This document shows, one piece after another, positions 37,459-49,847 of a stretch of DNA of 64,000 nt (position 1 is its first letter; the number at the start of each line of letters is the position of its first letter). The position numbers were made by a program, and so were the translations under genes. The notes beneath the pieces are model-generated. The model saw only the letters and a list, made by a program, of their open reading frames with translations, searched no databases and was not told the DNA's origin. Source of the DNA: Streptomyces mirabilis. GTDB lineage: Bacteria; Actinomycetota; Actinomycetes; Streptomycetales; Streptomycetaceae. Location: the NCBI RefSeq assembly GCF_039503195.1, contig NZ_JBCJKP010000001.1, positions 5,580,001 through 5,644,000 of the forward strand. Direction: 5' to 3'.

Positions 37459-38109
37459 CTAGAGCGCGGACAGCAGGATGATGAGGGAAACGGGTGGGTA
37501 CGCGGCGGTCGCCGCTGTGACGGGCAGGCCCAGGAGCACGTACGCCAGGACGGAGAGCGTGCGTACGACGGGCCCGTCGCGCGTGGTCATCCGCTTCGGG
37601 GCACAAGGGTCGTAGGTCACCTCGGTCCGCTCCGGATCGGTCGCCACGCGTCGGCCGCTTCCGCTGAGCGTCCGCTCCTCGCCTGCCACATCGGTGAACG
37701 AGTACCTCTTGACGAGCACTTCGCCGACGCGGTCGCTGTCCTGGTAGACGGCGAGGACGGCGATGCCGCGGCGGCGCAGCGACCACCAGTCCACCGTGAC
37801 CCGGTACACGATGTGCGTGAGCGCGCACCCGACGAGGAACGGTGTGTAGGAGGTGACCCAGAGGAGGACGAGCGTCCACTCCCCGGTGGCCGCGGCGAGG
37901 GCCGTCCCCAGCGCGAACTGCGCGCCGAACGCCCATTGCACCTTCCGATCGCGGGACGTCGTCCAGCGGTCCTTCCGTTCCGTCCCCCGGTCCAACAGCA
38001 CGGCGTCCTGCTCGAAGAGGGCCGTGGTACGGCGGGCGTGCAACACCAGTTCCGTCACGAGGAGCAACATAAGGAACCTGTACGCGTGTTCGGCAGGCCC
38101 GACTCTCAC
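37459..38109 (-). CDS. Hypothetical membrane protein (216 residues)
   Basis: The GTG at 38109 gives a protein with about four hydrophobic segments: AYRFLMLLLVTELVL, FALGTALAAATGEWTLVLLW, VTSYTPFLVGCALTHIV and a C-terminal LSVLAYVLLGLPVTAATAAY. The region YSFTDVAGEERTLSGSGRRV with TEVTYDPCAPKRM resembles DUF3592-type proteins. No function is known. It is divergent from the next gene with a 29-bp gap. Confidence 0.65.
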   Translation of the reverse strand: MRVGPAEHAYRFLMLLLVTELVLHARRTTALFEQDAVLLDRGTERKDRWTTSRDRKVQWAFGAQFALGTALAAATGEWTLVLLWVTSYTPFLVGCALTHIVYRVTVDWWSLRRRGIAVLAVYQDSDRVGEVLVKRYSFTDVAGEERTLSGSGRRVATDPERTEVTYDPCAPKRMTTRDGPVVRTLSVLAYVLLGLPVTAATAAYPPVSLIILLSAL

Positions 38110-38138
38110 GTCCCGGCTGAACCAATCCGGGCCCGCCG

Positions 38139-38696
38139 GTGTCTCAGAGGGCGACCGTGTTCGTCGTACTGGATGTGCTCGTCGTGCTGGAGGCGCCCGT
38201 GGCCATGATCGGCCTGTTCTGGATCACCAAGGAGAGCGTGTACGTGGGCGCCGAGCCCGAGGGGTACGGGCGCGGGGTGCGGCTCACCCCCGAGGGGCTT
38301 CAGGCCGTGGGCACGGGCCAGGAGGGGTTCTGGTCCTGGGCTGACGTCCGGGAGGTCACCGTTCACGACGTGCAGGTGCGCTCCAGTACCCGGTGGCTGG
38401 TGAACAACGTGATGGACACGGTCCTCGACATGGCGACGGGCGGCGGTGAGGCACCGCCCGCGTTCGAACTCCACGTACGCACGGACGAGGAGAAGGCCGA
38501 GCTGACGGTGTACACCGCGGCCGTCGGTGGCTACGTCCAGTCCGAGTACGAGCTGTCGGTGGCGCTGCTGAACCGGTTCGTGGACGGTACGGCGGACGTG
38601 GCGCGGCTGCTGGAGTGGGGGAGTGTCGAGGGCGACGGCGTGACACCCTGGCGGGCCGCGCGCGAGGCCCTGCTCACGAGCTGGGCCTCGGCCTGA
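38139..38696 (+). CDS. Hypothetical membrane-anchored protein (185 residues)
   Basis: The GTG at 38139 gives one N-terminal membrane segment (VFVVLDVLVVLEAPVAMIGL) and a soluble domain with GVRLTPEGLQAVGTG, GFWSWADVREVTVHDV and AFELHVRTDEEKAELTVYTA. The second half resembles PH-like domains of small bacterial membrane proteins, but I do not recognise a family. The two divergent neighbours may form a pair. Confidence 0.6.
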   Translation: MSQRATVFVVLDVLVVLEAPVAMIGLFWITKESVYVGAEPEGYGRGVRLTPEGLQAVGTGQEGFWSWADVREVTVHDVQVRSSTRWLVNNVMDTVLDMATGGGEAPPAFELHVRTDEEKAELTVYTAAVGGYVQSEYELSVALLNRFVDGTADVARLLEWGSVEGDGVTPWRAAREALLTSWASA

Positions 38697-38781
38697 GGTG
38701 TGGGACGAAGCGGATCGTTCCGTCCTCACCGCATCGCGCGACCCGGGGGAGACGATCACCGGGCCCAAGCGGAGCTGAGCC

Positions 38782-39636
38782 TCACGCCACCCGCGTGAAC
38801 TCCACCGTCACCTCCGGTGGGCCCCCGGCCACGCCCCGGTAGATCCCCTTGTGCGGGGTGACGTCGTCGTAGTCGCGGCCGCGGCCGACCACGACGTGGG
38901 ACTCGTCGGCCCGGGTGCTGTTGGTGGGGTCGTAGCCGGTCCAGTCGCCGGCCCAGTACTCGATCCAGGCGTGGCTCTGGCCGGCGACGGGGCGGTGGAG
39001 CTCGGCATCGCGTTCGGGGTGGAGGTAGCCCGAGACGTAGCGGGTGGGCACGCCCAGGCCGCGCAGGAGGGCCGCCGTCAGGTGGGTGATGTCCTGGCAG
39101 ACGCCCGCGCCCTGCTCCCAGGCCTCCATGGCGCCGGTGTTCACGCCGGTGGCGCCGGGGAGGTACGAGACCTGGTCGGTGACCATGGACGAGACCGCGA
39201 CCGCCGTCTCGTGGGGGTCCAGGCCCGTCGACGCCGACCTCGCCCGCTCCACCAACTCCCGCGTCACCGTCGTACGGCCGGTCGGGGACGTGTACTCCAG
39301 GAGGCGGGAGTTCGCCGTCGTTCTGGCGACCTCCGCCCAGGTGGGCGCGGGGGCCTGCGGGCCCGGTGGGGCCGTCTCCACCAGGCTCGACGCCGTGATG
39401 GTCAGGTCCTCGTGCGGTTCCATCAGGTCGAAGCCCGTGACCTGGGTGCCCCAGTAGTCCCAGTACGACCAGGTGGGCGTGGTCGGGTTGACCGTGACCC
39501 TGGCGTCCAGGGTCGTCTGGCCGGGGAGTGTCAGGGGGATCATGCGGACCTCGTTGTGGGAGGAGACCGCGGCCTGCGCGTACGAGACGCGGGTGGTGTG
39601 CCGGATCCGCAGCCGGCGTGTCACGGGAGTGCTCAT
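38782..39636 (-). CDS. Transglutaminase-like protease family protein
   Basis: The ATG at 39636 gives 284 residues. The N-terminal domain (RRLRIRHTTRVSYAQAAVSS, HNEVRMIPLTLPGQ) is the bacterial transglutaminase-like N domain. The catalytic triad appears as Cys in GAGVCQDITHL, His in GQSHAWIEYW and Asp in GYDPTNSTRA. It is the last gene of a three-gene set with the alpha-E and circularly permuted ATP-grasp genes, a conserved association. The set may make or cut an unknown peptide or isopeptide bond. Confidence 0.93.
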   Translation of the reverse strand: MSTPVTRRLRIRHTTRVSYAQAAVSSHNEVRMIPLTLPGQTTLDARVTVNPTTPTWSYWDYWGTQVTGFDLMEPHEDLTITASSLVETAPPGPQAPAPTWAEVARTTANSRLLEYTSPTGRTTVTRELVERARSASTGLDPHETAVAVSSMVTDQVSYLPGATGVNTGAMEAWEQGAGVCQDITHLTAALLRGLGVPTRYVSGYLHPERDAELHRPVAGQSHAWIEYWAGDWTGYDPTNSTRADESHVVVGRGRDYDDVTPHKGIYRGVAGGPPEVTVEFTRVA

Positions 39637-39641
39637 CGCGC

Positions 39642-40574
39642 TCACGCTCCTTCCTGGGCCCACTCGACGGGCCCCTGGTACGGGAAGAACCTCTCCGCCA
39701 CCGCCTCCGCCGAGGCCGTGCACGCTTGTTGCAGGTCGCGGAGGAGCAAGGGGAGCTGTTCCTCCAGGGCCGCCAGGTCCAGGTATTCCAGACGGGTTCT
39801 CATACGGCCTATCGGGCGGCGGGCCGGGTCCTGACGGGGGCGGCCGAGGGCGGCGAGGCACTCCTCGGCGGTGGTGAGCGCGTGCAGGGCGGACCGGGGG
39901 AAGTCCCGGTCGAGGAGGAGGAATTCGGCCACTCTCGGGGTGTCGCCGAAACCGCCGTACACCCGGGCATACGCCTCGTCCGCGCCGCTCGCGCTCAGCA
40001 GTGTCGGCCAGTCGGGGGCGTGGGCGGCGTCCAGCACGCGGACGGAGAGGAGCCGTACGGTCATGTCCACCCGCTCCAGGCTCCGGCCCAGCACCACGAA
40101 ACGCCAGCTGTCGTCGCGGCTCATCGTGGAGTCCGCGAGGCCGAAGAAGAGGGCGGCCCGTCGGCGTACCAGCTCCAGGTACGCGTACGGGCCCGTACGG
40201 CGGGCCGCGAGGCGCTGGTCGGCCAGCGCGTGCCAGGTGGAGTTGAGGCACTCCCACATCTCCGAGGAGACGGCCTCGCGGGCGCTGCGGGCGTTGAGGC
40301 GGGCGGCTCCGAGCGCGCCCTCGATGGAGCAGGTGGAGCGGGCGTCGAAGGCGAGTTGGTCCAGGACCTGCTGCATGTCGACGCGTTCGGAGCCCGCGTC
40401 GACACCGAGGATGGCGTACAGGGAGCGGCAGGCCACGTCCTCGTCGCGCCAGGGGTCCTCCAGGAGGCGGTGGAGGTAGGCGTCGAGGATGCGGCCCGTG
40501 GCGTCCGCCCGCTCGACGTAACGGCCCGTCCAGGTCAGGGCCTCGGCTATGCGGGAGAGGATCACGTCGTTCAC
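39642..40574 (-). CDS. Alpha-E domain protein
   Basis: The GTG at 40574 overlaps the stop codon of the ATP-grasp gene by four bases. The 310-residue helical product opens NDVILSRIAEALTWTGRYVE and contains RADATGRILDAYLHRLL, DDSWRFVVLGRSLERVDM and SALHALTTAEECLAALG. These are features of the alpha-E domain. Its role is unknown; it is almost always encoded beside ATP-grasp and transglutaminase genes. Confidence 0.9.
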   Translation of the reverse strand: MNDVILSRIAEALTWTGRYVERADATGRILDAYLHRLLEDPWRDEDVACRSLYAILGVDAGSERVDMQQVLDQLAFDARSTCSIEGALGAARLNARSAREAVSSEMWECLNSTWHALADQRLAARRTGPYAYLELVRRRAALFFGLADSTMSRDDSWRFVVLGRSLERVDMTVRLLSVRVLDAAHAPDWPTLLSASGADEAYARVYGGFGDTPRVAEFLLLDRDFPRSALHALTTAEECLAALGRPRQDPARRPIGRMRTRLEYLDLAALEEQLPLLLRDLQQACTASAEAVAERFFPYQGPVEWAQEGA

Positions 40575-42160
40575 TGCTGCTGTGCCCCTTCCTGTACGAC
40601 GCCACGGGCGCCGTCGGGTCCGAGCTGGCGCGGGACCACGTCCCACGCCGTGCCGCCGCCGTCGGCGTCCTCGGCGATCGAGGTCTCCTCTGTTCGAGCG
40701 AAGTCGAGAACTCGGGGGAGCTCGGCGGGGCCCTCCGCCAGCACCCAGGTGTCCTTGGAGCCGCCGCCCTGACTGGAGTTGACGATGAGGTTGCCCTCCT
40801 GGAGGGCGACCCTGGTGAGGCCGCCGGGCAGTACCCAGACGTCCGTGCCGTCGTTGACGGCGAACGGGCGCAGGTCGATGTGGCGGGGCGCCATCCGGTC
40901 GCCCGCGAGGGTGGGCGAGGTGGAGAGCGCCACGGGCCGCTGCGCGATCCAGCCACGCGGGTCGGCGGCGACGGCCGCCCGGGTGCGCTCCAGGGTGTCC
41001 CGGTCGGCCTTGGGTCCGATGACGATGCCCTGGCCGCCCGCCCCGTCCACCGGCTTGATCACCAGCTGGTCGATCTGATCGAGGACGGCTTCCAACTGGC
41101 CTGGTTCGTCCGGACGGTAGGACTCGACGTTCGGGAGAACGGGCTCCTCGCCGAGGTAGTACCGGATCAGATCGGGTACGTACGTGTAGAGGAGTTTGTC
41201 GTCGGCGATGCCGTTGCCCACGGCGTTGGCGAGCGTGACGGTGCCCGCCTGGGCGGCGCTGAGGATGCCCGGGCAGCCGATCACCGAATCGGGCCGGAAG
41301 TGCAGCGGATCGAGGAAGTCGTCGTCGAGCCGTCGGTATACGACATGCACCGGCATCTCGCCCCGCGTGGTCCGCATCCAGACACGGTTGTTCCGGCAGG
41401 CGAGATCGTGTCCCTCGACCAGCTGCACCCCCATCAGCCGTGCCAGCAGGGCGTGTTCGAAGTAGGCGGCGTTGCTGGGGCCGGGCGTGAGGACGACGAC
41501 CCTCGGGTCGCCGACCCCGTCGGGCGCGGCGGCGCGCAGGGCCGCCAGAAGTCTCTGCGCGTAGCCGTCCACGGGGACGACGTGCTGTTCGGCGAAGAGG
41601 GACGGAAAGATCCTGGTCATCGCGCGCCGGTTCTCGATGACGTACGAGACCCCGGACGGCACGCGGACGTTGTCCTCCAGGACCCGGAAGTCCCCGGCCT
41701 CGTCCCGTACGAGATCGATGCCGGCGACGTGGATCCGTACGCCGCCGGGTGGCTCGATCCCGTGCGCCGCCCGGTGGAAATGGGGGGAGTTGAGCAGGAG
41801 ACGCCAGGGCACGACCCCGTCCTCGAAGGCGCGGCCGGGCCCGTAGGCGTCGGAGAGGTAGGCCTCCAGGGCCCTCACCCGTTGGGAGACACCCCGTTGG
41901 ACGAGGTCCCATTCGAGGGCGTCGAGGATCCTGGGGACCAGGTCCAGCGGCCAGGGGCGCTCCTCGCCCGCGAAGGCGTAGGTCACGCCACGGTCGGTGA
42001 ACGCGCGGGCCATCTGGTCGGCCCGGAAGCGCAGTTCACCCGGTTCGATCGGCTGCAGGGCGGCCAGTACCGGCTCATAGGCGGTCCTGACTTCACCCGG
42101 CCGCTCAAACATCTCGTCCCACGCATCGGCCAACGCGTACGCGTCAAATATGTCCGCCAT
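40571..42160 (-). CDS. Circularly permuted type 2 ATP-grasp protein
   Basis: The ATG at 42160 gives 529 residues, starting MADIFDAYALADAWDEMFER. Family blocks include IDLVRDEAGDFRVLEDNVRV, VLTPGPSNAAYFEHALLARL, KPVDGAGGQGIVIGP and STSPTLAGDRMAPRHIDLRP. They hold the ATP-binding and metal-ligand residues of this carboxylate-amine ligase group. It heads a coupled operon with alpha-E and transglutaminase genes. The substrate is unknown, probably a peptide or amino-acid ligation. Confidence 0.92.
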   Translation of the reverse strand: MADIFDAYALADAWDEMFERPGEVRTAYEPVLAALQPIEPGELRFRADQMARAFTDRGVTYAFAGEERPWPLDLVPRILDALEWDLVQRGVSQRVRALEAYLSDAYGPGRAFEDGVVPWRLLLNSPHFHRAAHGIEPPGGVRIHVAGIDLVRDEAGDFRVLEDNVRVPSGVSYVIENRRAMTRIFPSLFAEQHVVPVDGYAQRLLAALRAAAPDGVGDPRVVVLTPGPSNAAYFEHALLARLMGVQLVEGHDLACRNNRVWMRTTRGEMPVHVVYRRLDDDFLDPLHFRPDSVIGCPGILSAAQAGTVTLANAVGNGIADDKLLYTYVPDLIRYYLGEEPVLPNVESYRPDEPGQLEAVLDQIDQLVIKPVDGAGGQGIVIGPKADRDTLERTRAAVAADPRGWIAQRPVALSTSPTLAGDRMAPRHIDLRPFAVNDGTDVWVLPGGLTRVALQEGNLIVNSSQGGGSKDTWVLAEGPAELPRVLDFARTEETSIAEDADGGGTAWDVVPRQLGPDGARGVVQEGAQQQ

Positions 42161-42607
42161 GGCCCGACGGTAGGTGCGGTACGTAACGTACCGATCACTC
42201 GACGATTTCCGGCAGCTCACGCGATCCGGACAGGGGCGGCGGAGCCCTGGCCGGACGAGGAGTGTCCGGCCAGGGCGGGCCAGGACGCCGTGTCGTCCCG
42301 GTGAACCGGGTCCACCCTGGCACCGGGTCGCGCACCCCGACCACCGTCATCTTGTTGCAGAGCGCCGTGCGGAGGTGGGGATATTTCCGTACGTACATGG
42401 GCGAGAGGGGGCGTGCGAAGGGCGCAGCCGTGTTGCGATGGCGGTCGGGTCCGCGCATAGTTGCGCTGCGGACGGCGCGGAGCGTCACCGTGCCGCAGTG
42501 TGAAGCGTTGTGCCAGGGAACGGTGCGCGGCGTCGCAGCGCCGAGGCTGTGGGGCGTCGCACTGCGGGAGGATGCCGGAGCCGGTGGGCGGGAGCCAGGG
42601 GTGGGAG
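42161..42607. other. Intergenic region between divergent genes
   Basis: These 447 bases hold no convincing gene. Short frames on both strands (for example 42195-42488 minus) are Pro/Arg-rich without family features. The region must hold the promoters of the ATP-grasp operon and of the first LuxR-type regulator. Confidence 0.4.
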
Positions 42608-43642
42608 ATGGCCGGGCACGGGACGGACAGGCATCCGCACGGCGCTGACCGACTGTGCGAGACCGGGGACCGCGTGTATTCCCGGGCGGTGCGGCGCGGG
42701 CGGGTGCCGCGCGCGGACGCGGAAGCGGTGCCCTGTCTGCTGGAGTTGGCGTTGCTGCACCCCGACCCCGACGACATGGGGTGGCTGGTGCCGACCTCGC
42801 CGCAGGAGGTCATGACACGGCTGCTGCGGGGCGTGTACGAGGAAATCAGCGCCAGCCAGGCGCGCGTGGGCGACGCGGTGGCGGCGTTCGAGTGGTACGC
42901 CGGGCTCGGCGGGCGCGTCCAGGCGCCGGGCGAGGGCGTGGCGATCCGAGTCCTGGACGGGCTGCCCCGGATCCGGGCCGCGATGGACGAGGCGACCGAG
43001 GCGTGCGCGACCGAGGTGCTCACCGTGCAGCCCGGCGGTATCCGCCGCGAGGACGAACTCTCCGAGGGACTGCACCGGGCGCTGGAGATGCGCCGGCGGG
43101 GCGTGCGGATGCGCGACCTGTACACGCACGTGGCCCGGCACGGCCAGGGCCTGCACAACTACATGGAGCTGATGGGCGACGCGGCGGAGGCCCGCACCCT
43201 CGACGAAGTCGTCGAGCGCCTCATCCTCTTCGACCGCAAGGTGGCCTTCATCCCGGCGAACGCGGACCGCACGATCGCCCTGGAACTGCGCCACCCCGCC
43301 CTCGTCGACTACCTGGTCACGGTCTTCGAGCGGCTGTGGCGCCTGGCGATCCCGCTCGCGGCGCCGCTCCCGGAGACCGGCATCGACGGCATCACCCACC
43401 GCGAGCGGTCCATCGCCGCGCTGCTGGCGGAGGGACACCAGGACGCGGTGGTCGCGGAGCGGCTGGGTATCAGCGTCCGCACCTGCCGGGCCCACATCGC
43501 ACGTCTCTCGGAGACCCTGGGCGCCGCGAGCCGTACCCAGTTGGGTGTCAGGATCGCGCAGGCGGGTCTGGACGGACCGCAGCGCGCTGCGGAACTGCTG
43601 CCGCTCAGTGATCCGGGTCGAGAATCCCCGACCGCCCGATGA
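42608..43642 (+). CDS. LuxR-type regulator, paralogue 1
   Basis: The ATG at 42608 follows GTGGGAG and gives 344 residues. An N-terminal domain with a TrmB/phospholipase-D-like fold spans about 1-255 (DRVYSRAVRRGRVPRADAEA, LELALLHPDPDDMGWLVP, ATEVLTVQPGG). The C-terminal LuxR helix-turn-helix lies at about 265-325 (ITHRERSIAALLAEGHQDAV, VAERLGISVRTCRAHIARLS). No receiver domain is present. It is convergent with paralogue 2 and their ends overlap by 38 bp. Target and signal are unknown. Confidence 0.85.
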   Translation: MAGHGTDRHPHGADRLCETGDRVYSRAVRRGRVPRADAEAVPCLLELALLHPDPDDMGWLVPTSPQEVMTRLLRGVYEEISASQARVGDAVAAFEWYAGLGGRVQAPGEGVAIRVLDGLPRIRAAMDEATEACATEVLTVQPGGIRREDELSEGLHRALEMRRRGVRMRDLYTHVARHGQGLHNYMELMGDAAEARTLDEVVERLILFDRKVAFIPANADRTIALELRHPALVDYLVTVFERLWRLAIPLAAPLPETGIDGITHRERSIAALLAEGHQDAVVAERLGISVRTCRAHIARLSETLGAASRTQLGVRIAQAGLDGPQRAAELLPLSDPGRESPTAR

Positions 43643-44594
43643 GGTAGCCGAGCTGGGCCCGGCTCTCGCTGCCGAGGGTGACGGCGAGTTTGGCGATGTG
43701 GACGCGGGCGGTGCGGACGTTCATGCCGAGGCGGTCGGCGATCACGGTGTCCGTGTGCCCTTCGACGAGCAGGGCGGCTATGGCGCGTTGGCGGGGGGTG
43801 ATGCCGTTGTGGGACGGGCGCTGGACGGCTTCGGGGTACATGGGCGTGGCCAGGCGCCAGAGCCGGTCGAAGGTGGTCACGAGGTAGGAGACCAGGGCCG
43901 GATGGCGGACTTCCAGGGCGAGGAAGCCGTCTTTGTCGGCCGGGATGAAGGCGACGGTGCGGTCGACGGCGATGAGCCGGTCGGTGATCTCGTCCAGGCT
44001 CCGCGCCTCGACGTCGCCGTTCAGTTGTTCGTAGCGGGCGAGAGTCATGGGTGAGTGGCGGAGCGTGTGCTGGTAGAGGGTGCGGATGCGGGCGCCTCGG
44101 TCGAGCAGGGCCTGGTCGCGGTCCAGGGCGAGGCCCTCGGCCACGACGCCACGGTGACCGGCGAGACCGTTGTGCGGCTGGATGCACAGGATTTCGCGGG
44201 ACGCGGCGGCCATGGCCTCGGTGATGGCCCCGTTGATCCGCTCCGTGCCGCTGAGGACCCGGATCGTCGGGGTGTCCGTGGCTGCCGTGCGCCTGCCGTC
44301 GATACGCATCAGCGGTTCGAACACCGCGGCCAGTCTGGTCTCGCGCCGTCGTTCTTCCGCGACGCGTTCCTCGGAGGTCCGTAGTAACCGGTGGAGGGCA
44401 ACTGCCGGGGCGACGGGCTCCAGCCAGTTCAGATCCTCGATGGCCGGGTGCACCAGTCCGAAGTCGACGAGGCAGGGCGCTTCGGCGGCGTCCGCGCTGC
44501 GTACGCGCCCTGCACGCAGGGCCCGTTCGTACAGCTCCGATCCCGCCGCGCACAGTTCTTCCACGCCGTGGGCCAGGTGCGGGGCGTCGGTCAC
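43605..44594 (-). CDS. LuxR-type regulator, paralogue 2
   Basis: The GTG at 44594 overlaps the stop of paralogue 3 (GTGA), so translation is coupled. The 329-residue product has the same layout: ELYERALRAGRVRSADAAEA and CLVDFGLVHPAIEDLNWLEP, then SREILCIQPHNG, and the LuxR domain ITPRQRAIAALLVEGHTDTV followed by ADRLGMNVRTARVHIAKLA. The frame stays open far upstream, but the upstream part lacks similarity. It is likely an orphan transcription factor. Confidence 0.88.
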   Translation of the reverse strand: MTDAPHLAHGVEELCAAGSELYERALRAGRVRSADAAEAPCLVDFGLVHPAIEDLNWLEPVAPAVALHRLLRTSEERVAEERRRETRLAAVFEPLMRIDGRRTAATDTPTIRVLSGTERINGAITEAMAAASREILCIQPHNGLAGHRGVVAEGLALDRDQALLDRGARIRTLYQHTLRHSPMTLARYEQLNGDVEARSLDEITDRLIAVDRTVAFIPADKDGFLALEVRHPALVSYLVTTFDRLWRLATPMYPEAVQRPSHNGITPRQRAIAALLVEGHTDTVIADRLGMNVRTARVHIAKLAVTLGSESRAQLGYLIGRSGILDPDH

Positions 44595-45583
44595 CCCGCC
44601 GCTCCCTCCTGCTTGAGGATTCCCGATTCCGCTATGAGGTAGCCGAGTTGGGCGCGGCTGCCGCTGCCGAGAGCGGTGGCCAGCTTGGCTATGTGGGCGC
44701 GGCAGGTGCGGACGTTCATGCCGAGACGGCGCGCGATGGCCTCGTCGACGTGGCCCTCCACGAGGAGCTTGGCGATGGAGTGCTGGATGTTGGTGATGCC
44801 GCCCAGGGCGGGTTCGTAGGGGGCGCCGGCGCTGAGTGGGACGGCGCGGTCCCACATGAACTCGAAGACCTTGATCAGATAGCGGACCAGGCCCGGGTGG
44901 CGAAGCTCCAGGGCGACCTGCTGGTCGTCGCGGGTGGGGATGAAGGCGACGCTCTCGTCGCAGACGATGAGACGCTCCACCAGCTCGTCGACGGTGCGGT
45001 ATTCGACCTTGCCGTCCGAGAGCTGGGCCACATACGCCAGCTTCTCGGGACTGTGGCGGGCCGTGTGTTGATACAGCGTCCGGATGCGCACACCACGTTC
45101 GATCAGAGGCCGGTCGCGCTCCAGGCCGAGAAGAAGGCTGCGCTCGGAGCCGCGGTCGCTCGGCTGGATGGTGAGCATCTCGGTCTGGCACTGGGCCGTG
45201 GCCAGGTTGAGCGCCGCGTTGATCCGGTCCCCGCCCTCCAACACCGTGATGGAGTGCGTGGACGTGGCCTCTTGTGCGCTGAGGGCCATGAACGGCTCAA
45301 AAGCATCGCTCAGTTCGACCGACAGCCGTCTGCGCTCGGCGATCTCGCGCTCGATGGGGTTGAGTCGCTGAGCCAGGGCGACGAACGGGGGCACCGGACG
45401 GAGCCAGCTCGCGTCGTCGGGATCGGGGTGAAGGAGCGCGAGTTCCATCAAGCAGGGGGCGGGCGTCACGTCCGCGCGTGCGATTCGTCCGGTGCGCAGG
45501 GCGTTCGCGTAGAGGCGTCCACCCGCCTCGCACAGATCGGTCACCCCGTGGGGATGTGTCGCGTTAGTCTGATTTGTTGCCAA
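44591..45583 (-). CDS. LuxR-type regulator, paralogue 3
   Basis: The start is TTG at 45583 with GGTGGAG just upstream; GTG codons inside (VTDLCEAG) are alternatives. The 330-residue product repeats the pattern GGRLYANALRTGRIARADVT, CLMELALLHPDPDDASWLRP, TEMLTIQPSD and the LuxR domain SIAKLLVEGHVDEAIARRLG with NVRTCRAHIAKLATAL. It is divergently transcribed from the small secreted peptide gene at 45697 across a 113-bp gap, which suggests that it controls that gene. Confidence 0.88.
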   Translation of the reverse strand: MATNQTNATHPHGVTDLCEAGGRLYANALRTGRIARADVTPAPCLMELALLHPDPDDASWLRPVPPFVALAQRLNPIEREIAERRRLSVELSDAFEPFMALSAQEATSTHSITVLEGGDRINAALNLATAQCQTEMLTIQPSDRGSERSLLLGLERDRPLIERGVRIRTLYQHTARHSPEKLAYVAQLSDGKVEYRTVDELVERLIVCDESVAFIPTRDDQQVALELRHPGLVRYLIKVFEFMWDRAVPLSAGAPYEPALGGITNIQHSIAKLLVEGHVDEAIARRLGMNVRTCRAHIAKLATALGSGSRAQLGYLIAESGILKQEGAAG

Positions 45584-45696
45584 AACTCCACCCCCCAGGG
45601 TCCTGAACGTGCAGGAACATGATGCATCGATTATGTGGCCACGACGTGCCCGAATGAGCCATCGTCTTACTCGACGGGGGAAGACGGGACTTTCAA

Positions 45697-45900
45697 GTGA
45701 GGACGAAGCCGACTATGCGTAACAAAATGCTTCGCTCGGTGCTTGTCGCCGCCTTCTCCGCCGTGGTGGCATTCGGAGCTCTGGGCGGCCTCTCCGGCGC
45801 GAAGGGTGATGTCCGGGCGGACAGTCACTGGCCGGCGGCAGCAGCGGACATCCAGACCATCCAGACGGTGAGTACGGCGGACGACGGCTCCGGGAGCTGA
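45697..45900 (+). CDS. Short secreted peptide, possible signal or product
   Basis: The GTG at 45697 or the ATG at 45715 gives 67 or 61 residues. A clear signal peptide (KMLRSVLVAAFSAVVAFGAL) is followed by a short mature part with SGAKGDVRADSHWPAAAADI and a Thr/Asp/Gly/Ser tail. It lies 1 bp before the Rieske-like gene and is probably cotranscribed. It might be a secreted peptide sensed or controlled by the nearby LuxR-type regulators. No known peptide family is recognised. Confidence 0.65.
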   Translation: MRTKPTMRNKMLRSVLVAAFSAVVAFGALGGLSGAKGDVRADSHWPAAAADIQTIQTVSTADDGSGS

Positions 45901-45901
45901 C

Positions 45902-46237
45902 GTGACCACACCCCCCGACGACCGATCCTTCCGCCGAGAAATGGCCACCGCATACCGCTCCGGCTGGCACTTCATCGACCTGGCCACCGCCATTCCCCAC
46001 AGTGGTGACTCGTTGATGGTGACGGTGTTCGGAGAGCCGGTCGTCGTCACCCGGGATGACGACGAGGACGTCCGGGCGTACCGGTGTCTGCGGCGCCCGC
46101 GCGGCGCGCCGCAGCCCGTGCGGTGTGCCATTCGGTACGGAATGATCTTTGTGAACCTCGACCAGCGTGACCACCAACTGGACGAGCCGGAAGTCCCGGA
46201 CGTAAGGACCATCTCAGCCACCCCCCGCAGTGCCTGA
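45902..46237 (+). CDS. Compact Rieske-like protein lacking iron-sulfur ligands
   Basis: The GTG at 45902 follows the peptide gene's stop by one base. The 111-residue product reads SGWHFIDLATAIPHSGDSLM and VTVFGEPVVVTRDDDEDVRA, like the N-terminus of Rieske ring-hydroxylating oxygenases. The CxH and CxxH iron-sulfur ligands should follow; instead comes YRCLRRPRGAPQ, then YGMIFVNLDQRD, the segment normally after the second ligand pair. It therefore looks internally deleted or adapted to a non-redox role. Confidence 0.6.
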   Translation: MTTPPDDRSFRREMATAYRSGWHFIDLATAIPHSGDSLMVTVFGEPVVVTRDDDEDVRAYRCLRRPRGAPQPVRCAIRYGMIFVNLDQRDHQLDEPEVPDVRTISATPRSA

Positions 46238-46378
46238 CGCGATTCCCCCGTCGTAGTAGATCGCGCAGGTACTTCCCCGCAGCGGCGTCACCGTGACCTG
46301 AACACGGTGACGCCGCTGCAGTTTTGGGCGAAAGATCCACGTATCCGCCCCTCTTCATGCCATCTCCACAACGGCTGA

Positions 46379-46713
46379 GATCAGCCGGGTCTCACGCCCG
46401 CGGCCGGCGGGTCCCACGCCGGGGACCGGTCGGCCGGGTCATACGCCCGGGGCCGGTCAGCCGGATTCCGCGCCCACGGCGGTTCAGCCGGGTCCCGCGC
46501 CCGAGACTGGTCGGCCGGGTTCCGCGCCGGGGGCTGGTCGGCCGGGTCTCACGCCCCGAGGCCGATCAGTCGGACCGCGCGCCCGGGATCGGGGCCGGCT
46601 AGTCGGACCGCGCGCCCGGGTCGTTCGGCCGGGCCGCACGCCCGTGGTCGGTCGGTCGGTCGGGTCCCGCGCCCCGGGGCCGGTCGGCCGGGCCCGCGGC
46701 CGGTCAGCCGTGT
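46379..46713. repeat. Degenerate 27-bp tandem repeat array
   Basis: About a dozen imperfect units of the type GGTCGGCCGGGTCCCGCGCC plus 7 bases fill the space between the Rieske-like gene and the PPOX gene. Units range from 20 to 33 bp, most are 27. The last unit contains the stop codon of the minus-strand PPOX gene. No protein is confidently encoded, though a plus-strand frame would give a repeating VGRVxRPxP pattern. Confidence 0.75.

Positions 46714-47261: not shown

Positions 47262-49847
<2,586 letters not shown>

Follow-up and report, generated by a model that had tools for sequence, protein, structure and literature searches.

The overall logic of a secreted peptide that is read by a cytosolic receptor has precedents, known from Bacillota, among which the RRNPP(A) systems (Rap-Phr, PlcR-PapR, Rgg-SHP, and AimR-AimP) are the closest described ones. 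According to the accessible part of PMC10075063, an RRNPP system consists of a small gene for a Sec-exported propeptide (10-100 amino acids) adjoining the gene of a cytosolic receptor of 250-500 amino acids with tetratricopeptide repeats (TPRs), and the same part describes the signals of actinomycetes as typically being enzyme-made small molecules. Some Rap-Phr propeptides carry tandem pheromone copies, as stated in an excerpt of PMC11343458. Here, we describe a locus in a 64,000-nucleotide stretch (the window) of the 11.1 Mb genome of Streptomyces mirabilis, which comprises three regulators (R1, R2, and R3), a short open reading frame (ORF) for a secreted peptide, and a gene for a Rieske-like protein (Table 1). 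We consider it likely, with a probability of roughly 0.8, that the small gene encodes a peptide pheromone precursor and that R3 is its cytoplasmic one-component receptor, a pair that would work in an RRNPP-like manner without TPRs. This reading is built on comparisons of sequences between genomes.

Compared with the RRNPP(A) systems, the R3/peptide pair is alike in the small propeptide, the adjacency of the two genes, and the size of the receptor (330 amino acids for R3). It differs in that R3 combines a PLD/TrmB-like domain with a LuxR-type helix-turn-helix, has no TPR match, and belongs to an actinomycete; the pair is not itself an RRNPP member. In the structural model of R3 (predicted local distance difference test score of 87.7), the PLD/TrmB-like domain spans residues 106-253, which match PLD-fold domains in structure comparison, and the LuxR-type (GerE) helix-turn-helix spans residues 259-326, while residues 13-105 are covered by alignments with TrmBL2 only at a large root-mean-square deviation. 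The NCBIfam model of TrmBL2 reaches only 11.9 bits (over residues 161-214), and in Pfam at E up to 1 neither the TrmB family, nor any TPR family, nor a LuxR/N-acyl homoserine lactone autoinducer-binding domain is listed for R3. The archaeal regulators TrmB and TrmBL2 likewise possess a PLD-like effector-binding domain, but R3 is distinguished from them by its C-terminal LuxR-type helix-turn-helix and by its proposed ligand, a peptide. Each signalling family tested has a defining feature that the R3/peptide pair lacks, and neither partner fits any of these described families. An earlier note on this DNA, made from the sequence alone, knew of no described system with this composition, and none turned up in the full-text literature searched either, the coverage of which leaves out most subscription journals and bioRxiv preprints. 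The locus thus looks like part of a previously undescribed bacterial peptide-signalling language.

For comparison, 150 genomes were drawn evenly from the genus and searched for the Rieske-like protein. From this draw, 119 of 123 true loci and a second copy in one genome (G023) were fetched, and 80 named loci were added. Exclusion of the second copy (L149), which lacks R3, from the 201 loci left 200. Each of the 200 loci with both R3 and the Rieske-like gene contains an ORF that is homologous or analogous to the precursor. A rule for the core motif, [DEN]xxW, which constrains core positions 1 and 4 and leaves positions 2 and 3 free, parsed 196 of the 200 precursors; three further ones (L111, L121, and L123, all with DITW) were recognized by eye and not used, and the last one (L167) reads ITEWP. 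Removal of six duplicates left 190 distinct loci for the core statistics.

The precursor begins with a basic start and a hydrophobic signal-like stretch, as judged by simple rules, and is short (61 amino acids here; fewer than 100 in 164 of the 190 relatives and up to 159 in the others). The number of core copies per precursor ranges from 1 to 12, and 148 of the 190 loci have at least two. Although 45 different cores occur among the 190 loci, 140 of the 148 multi-copy precursors contain a single core type, while shuffling gave a mean of 5.2 and a maximum of 14 such precursors (2000 shuffles). Between copies within one precursor, conservation at core positions 1 to 4 is 0.99, 0.99, 0.97, and 1.00 (positions 1 and 4 being fixed in class by the rule) and 0.80 at the residue after the core, dropping to 0.15-0.45 in the flanks. 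Since the core is encoded in more than one codon version in 123 of the 148 multi-copy loci, the copies must be kept alike by selection at the protein level. Selection thus maintains a unit of four to five residues within a genome, as the core is uniform within a precursor and the flanks are not, and this unit differs between genomes. Such a pattern, uniform within and variable between, would be expected for a signal with self-specific copies.

The core is tracked by R3. Among 189 loci, 64-69% have the same core as their nearest neighbor by R3 (random pairs, 4%), and 24-33% the same core as their nearest neighbor by ClpB or by the Rieske-like protein. For the 89 loci that have both R1 and R2, core sharing amounts to 56-61% by R3, 33-36% by R2, 25-27% by R1, and 25-27% by ClpB. 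The association of R3 with the core persists when ClpB is taken into account (partial Mantel r = 0.447, 0 of 500 permutations), and in the set of 89 loci the corresponding partial correlation is 0.42 for R3 and −0.13 for R1. When R3 was divided into blocks of 30 residues, the association peaked at residues 121-150 (sharing 0.68, partial correlation 0.47), whereas residues 1-60, whose codons lie nearest to the peptide gene, gave a sharing of about 0.40; the helix-turn-helix blocks gave 0.10 (chance about 0.04), but this region varies little. Co-variation with the core is strong for R3, weak for R2 and the Rieske-like protein, and almost absent for R1 and ClpB.

Scanning the columns of R3 against core positions 1-4 identified residue 136, which appears to read core position 2. 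Met136 occurs with Ser in 88 of 88 loci, and the pairing is exclusive both ways, as all Ser cores have Met and all Met receptors a Ser core. Leu136 goes with Pro (15/15), and Val136 with Thr, Ile, Leu, or Val in 83 of 83 loci (49, 16, 11, and 7, respectively); the remaining pairs are Ile-Ile (2), Ile-Leu (1), and Ala-Leu (1). Other sites follow core positions 1 and 3: Asn126 is found with all 12 Asn cores, yet also with 51 Asp cores, Asp126 with all 13 Glu cores, Asp143 plus Gly, Phe, or Tyr145 with all 13 His cores, and Ser or Phe145 with all 13 Lys/Arg cores. Switches between Ser and other residues number at least 25-27 on R3's own tree and 42-44 on the ClpB tree. Independent contrasts were in step in 23 of 23 cases on those branches of the ClpB tree that have good support (p = 2.4e-7) and in eight of eight on supported branches of an R3 tree built without the four specificity columns. 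In 90 loci, residue 136 of R3 explains 0.832 of the uncertainty at core position 2 (0 of 1000 permutations as good). The equivalent residue explains 0.175 in R2 (71 of 1000) and 0.022 in R1 (476 of 1000), and both were rejected as the main receptor.

Because site 136 came from a column scan, held-out loci offer the fair test. We started from 69 loci (L271-L339), 29 from one draw and 40 hand-picked, and hence non-random, from a match listing with at least 72% identity to R3. One locus below 55% identity to R3, 19 with repeated precursors, and three without a rule-parsed precursor were dropped (of the latter, L288 and L296 agree by eye and L295 stems from a genome already used), which left 46. 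The rule for residue 136 held in 45 of these 46 loci. Likewise, Asp143 accompanied all three His cores, Asn126 all three Asn cores, and Phe145 four of five Lys/Arg cores. Peptide signalling, which the earlier note had offered as one possibility, is strongly supported by the uniform cores of each precursor and by the R3 residues that match them.

The unit is widely conserved. In the 150 evenly drawn genomes, the Rieske-like protein has a strong match in 120, a diverged one in three (G047, G050, and G105), nothing but weak matches within large, oxygenase-sized frames in six, and none in 21; there is one strong place per genome except for the second copy in G023. R3 lies directly upstream of the Rieske-like gene and divergent from it in all 119 evenly drawn loci fetched, with a small secreted ORF in between (116 by rule and three by eye) and clpB downstream in each; R3 also adjoins the Rieske-like gene in the present locus, G001, G047, and G105. 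When 26 of the 27 genomes without a true Rieske-like match were searched for R3 (E ≤1e-30), no relative above 41% identity was found, and the presence or absence of R3 tracks that of the Rieske-like gene. A larger draw contained R3 at E ≤1e-105 in 321 of 392 genomes, and a very small secreted peptide seems to be encoded near clpB in most Streptomyces species. The other regulators are less constant: further R2-like copies on the minus strand number zero in 52, one in 52, and two to four in 15 of the 119 loci, and 60 of the 119 were found to have a copy of the R1 type (a few loci being cut by contig ends). The earlier note's proposal of one system therefore stands for R3, the peptide, and the Rieske-like protein, which occur together in all 119 evenly drawn loci and form the conserved unit. 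It does not stand for the three regulators as one obligate unit, which is ruled out as R1 and R2 are often missing. The divergent arrangement that the note had pointed out is kept throughout the 119 loci, while the second copy in G023 is a Rieske-like gene without R3.

Moreover, peptides also accompany more distant relatives of R3, so that regulator and peptide together seem to form the essential pair. In L247, L252, and L256, regulators that are 31-36% identical to R3 adjoin secreted ORFs ending in similar motifs. Of the 30 best-matching located relatives of the L252 regulator (38-59% identical to it), 14 are divergent from a secreted ORF that carries the motif close to its end (DTGWG, DLGWG, DSGWG, DTSWGG, DDRWG, and others), compared with 0.05 expected from DNA shuffled in two-base blocks (40 times per locus) and 0 on the opposite strand. 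These 14 pairs span four genera (coded g1, g3, g7, and g14), and the distant pairs sit elsewhere in the genome than the clpB locus. The count may be too low because two distant regulator loci (L387 and L396) have a secreted ORF ending in DTSWGG in a non-divergent orientation. A relative of R3 with 48-49% identity in genome G220 (genus g7) comes with a secreted ORF containing QDHVWD.

How the pair might operate can be outlined as follows. The precursor, with its signal-like segment, would be exported by Sec and trimmed extracellularly to a short peptide consisting of the DxxW core and about one more residue (DSHW or DSHWP here), which would return through an oligopeptide permease and bind the PLD/TrmB-like domain of R3, as the residue-by-residue co-variation suggests. 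Peptide-bound or free, R3 could then act at a palindrome between its own gene and the peptide gene, providing feedback on its own signal, and might also control further genes, plausibly for antibiotic production. Since the core and the matching R3 residues differ by species, each species would listen mainly to its own kind (pherotypes), with the Rieske-like protein as a constant companion in the unit. The spacing between CCTG and CAGG in the palindrome is 6 in 175 and 5 in 15 of the 190 loci, and mismatches in the flanking 16-mer TGCAGGAACATGATGC average 0.26 across loci. The genome of S. mirabilis contains a single such site (with up to three mismatches allowed), so a regulon defined by further operator sites was rejected.

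A link to antibiotics comes from Streptomyces coelicolor. The portions available of PMC3282765 assign SCO3665 (327 amino acids) and SCO3666 (394 amino acids) to the LuxR family, sizes that fit R2 (329 amino acids) and R1 (longest ORF, 393 amino acids), and those of PMC6585502 name SCO3664 as a regulator and count its insertion mutant among those in which actinorhodin rose more than 50-fold. As far as these portions go, SCO3664-SCO3666 are probably the same locus, with R3 assigned to SCO3664 by gene order and size and not by a sequence match. Neither paper refers to a peptide in these portions. If R3 is SCO3664, it would be a brake on actinorhodin, because disruption of SCO3664 raises production. 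Import of a signal peptide by Streptomyces is itself thought to occur, since BldK of S. coelicolor, an oligopeptide permease, takes up a 655 Da peptide that is presumed to be a signal for aerial growth (PMC9640686, in the part seen). Identity of that signal with a core peptide was rejected as the masses disagree (DTIWS of L324 has 620.28 Da) and the core is missing from the one unmodified subpeptide with a mass near 655 Da.

Several observations weigh against the interpretation of R3 as a pheromone receptor. Given ClpB, a residual correlation with the core is retained in the 89 loci by R2 (0.14) and the Rieske-like protein (0.12; 1 of 300 permutations each), from which it follows that some linkage (neighborhood) effect exists. 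Within R3, residues 1-120 give a partial correlation of 0.463, matching the 0.418 of residues 121-250. The held-out exceptions are L321, in which Leu136 occurs with NTQW, and L333, in which an Arg core occurs with Arg145. Furthermore, eight of the 148 multi-copy precursors mix cores, L167 has its atypical ITEWP in place of the usual core, the promoter pattern was found in eight of 13 Streptomyces genomes and missed in five, and 16 of the 30 distant regulator loci show no such peptide by the filter used.

Among other explanations, R3 might bind the precursor within the cell that makes it, either ahead of export or in place of it, so that the pair would report the state of secretion or protein quality rather than the presence of neighbors. 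The constant position of clpB downstream and the lack of a recognized importer gene between R1 and clpB would suit such a sensor, but it gives no evident reason for 45 cores being tracked by receptor residues, leaves unexplained why a precursor should have as many as 12 short copies separated by divergent spacers, and does not fit distant pairs that occupy other places in the genome; we regard it as unlikely. Alternatively, the peptide could be a secreted antimicrobial or a product like the ribosomally synthesized and post-translationally modified peptides (RiPPs), with R3 as a local regulator that senses it. The short secreted precursor with a conserved Trp core and the redox-enzyme fold of the small neighbor protein are in line with this, and multiple core copies occur in some RiPP precursors. 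However, the neighbor protein is without Rieske cluster ligands, no enzyme gene is seen from R3 to clpB at the present locus, and a diversification that is matched by R3 residues is the behavior of a signal, which makes a product of this kind quite improbable. That R3 and the peptide gene, being adjacent and divergently transcribed, co-vary only through joint recombination without any recognition, as the weak residual correlations of R2 and the Rieske-like protein might suggest, is the least credible explanation, because the peptide's other (less variable) neighbor, the Rieske-like gene, offers no better prediction of the core than ClpB, the blockwise association is highest in the central part of R3, and one residue explains core position 2 over repeated independent switches and held-out loci.

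With a pheromone and its receptor as the preferred reading, a wider picture can be drawn, to which we would give somewhat less than even odds. A DxxW peptide language of Streptomycetaceae would comprise the clpB-side pherotype locus of most Streptomyces and many scattered pairs in at least four genera, with TrmB/PLD-LuxR receptors and a simple residue code, R1 and R2 as ears for foreign words, and antibiotics and development under its gate. With a short pheromone that is predictable from sequence, silent antibiotic pathways could be approached directly in hundreds of antibiotic-producing species, as each species' peptide could be read from its genome and synthesized. With a one-residue rule for specificity, recognition between receptor and ligand can be tested immediately, and the mutant phenotype of SCO3664, the probable R3 orthologue, reported in the available part of PMC6585502, makes the link between peptide and antibiotic testable in a laboratory strain.

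Table 1. Features of the locus, in positions of the window.
Feature	Position	Strand	Remarks
R1	42608..43642	+	accessory paralogue; Val at the position equivalent to R3 residue 136
R2	43605..44594	-	accessory paralogue; copy number variable
R3, proposed peptide receptor	44591..45583	-	330 amino acids; fold matches and co-variation with the core
R3 codons 143-145 (Asp-Arg-Gly)	45149..45157	-	associated with core position 3
R3 codon 136 (Met)	45176..45178	-	associated with core position 2
R3 codon 126 (Asn)	45206..45208	-	associated with core position 1
Palindrome TCCTG-N6-CAGGA, candidate R3 operator	45601..45616		conserved between R3 and the peptide gene
Secreted precursor peptide	45697..45900	+	61 amino acids from ATG 45715; 67 from GTG 45697
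Core D-S-H-W-P	45820..45834	+	directly after V-R-A, where a signal peptidase might cut
Rieske-fold protein without cluster ligands	45902..46237	+	111 amino acids

The three regulators, the peptide ORF, and the Rieske-like ORF are present in the sequence as the earlier note had listed them. The regulators are paralogues with 47-51% identity among themselves (52% between R2 and R3 in a second comparison), and the GTGA overlap that the note had seen between two of them joins R3 and R2. R1 and R2 are accessory paralogues that may respond to other cores or modulate R3. A TTA codon is present at about codon 70 of R2, whereas R1, R3, the peptide gene, and the Rieske-like gene have none; TTA is a rare codon in Streptomyces and is decoded by the developmental tRNA bldA. 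Among the examined loci, arrays are largest in L040/L195 and L126, where four additional tandem R3/R2-like genes lie upstream of R3. In L066, L159, L166, and L230, the matches to R2-like genes are split in two, as a frameshift or a sequencing error would cause. R2 copies may often decay and get replaced.

The note's statement that the Rieske-like protein is without CxH and CxxH ligands extends to a comparison of 42 sequences, in which no Cys or His is invariant and none forms a CxH or CxxH motif; C62, H23, and H91 are nearly invariant and C75 less so. As the cluster ligands are absent, Rieske enzyme activity was rejected. Matches of this ORF to Imm35 (Pfam, 14.5 bits at a cut-off of 27.5) and of the peptide ORF to the anti-sigma factor CnrY (NCBIfam, 20.2 bits at a cut-off of 35) lie below their cut-offs and were set aside. 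The second Rieske-like copy of G023 (G023:C1:82500-99500), near the start of its contig, is 70% identical over residues 1-98, and its surroundings contain no R3 or clpB match.

Just 3' of the Rieske-like gene, a strong inverted repeat, GCAGCGGCGTCACCGTG...CACGGTGACGCCGCTGC, read by eye at 46279-46320, is perhaps a terminator. The gene at 47262-49847 we take to be clpB, presumably SCO3661 in S. coelicolor, and on the other side of the locus, at 38106-42220 on the minus strand, lie ORFs that resemble what we take to be a cluster of circularly permuted ATP-grasp, alpha-E, and transglutaminase-like proteins. Between the Rieske-like gene and clpB (46400-46700), imperfect GC-rich repeats with words such as GGTCGGCCGGGTC were likewise read by eye.

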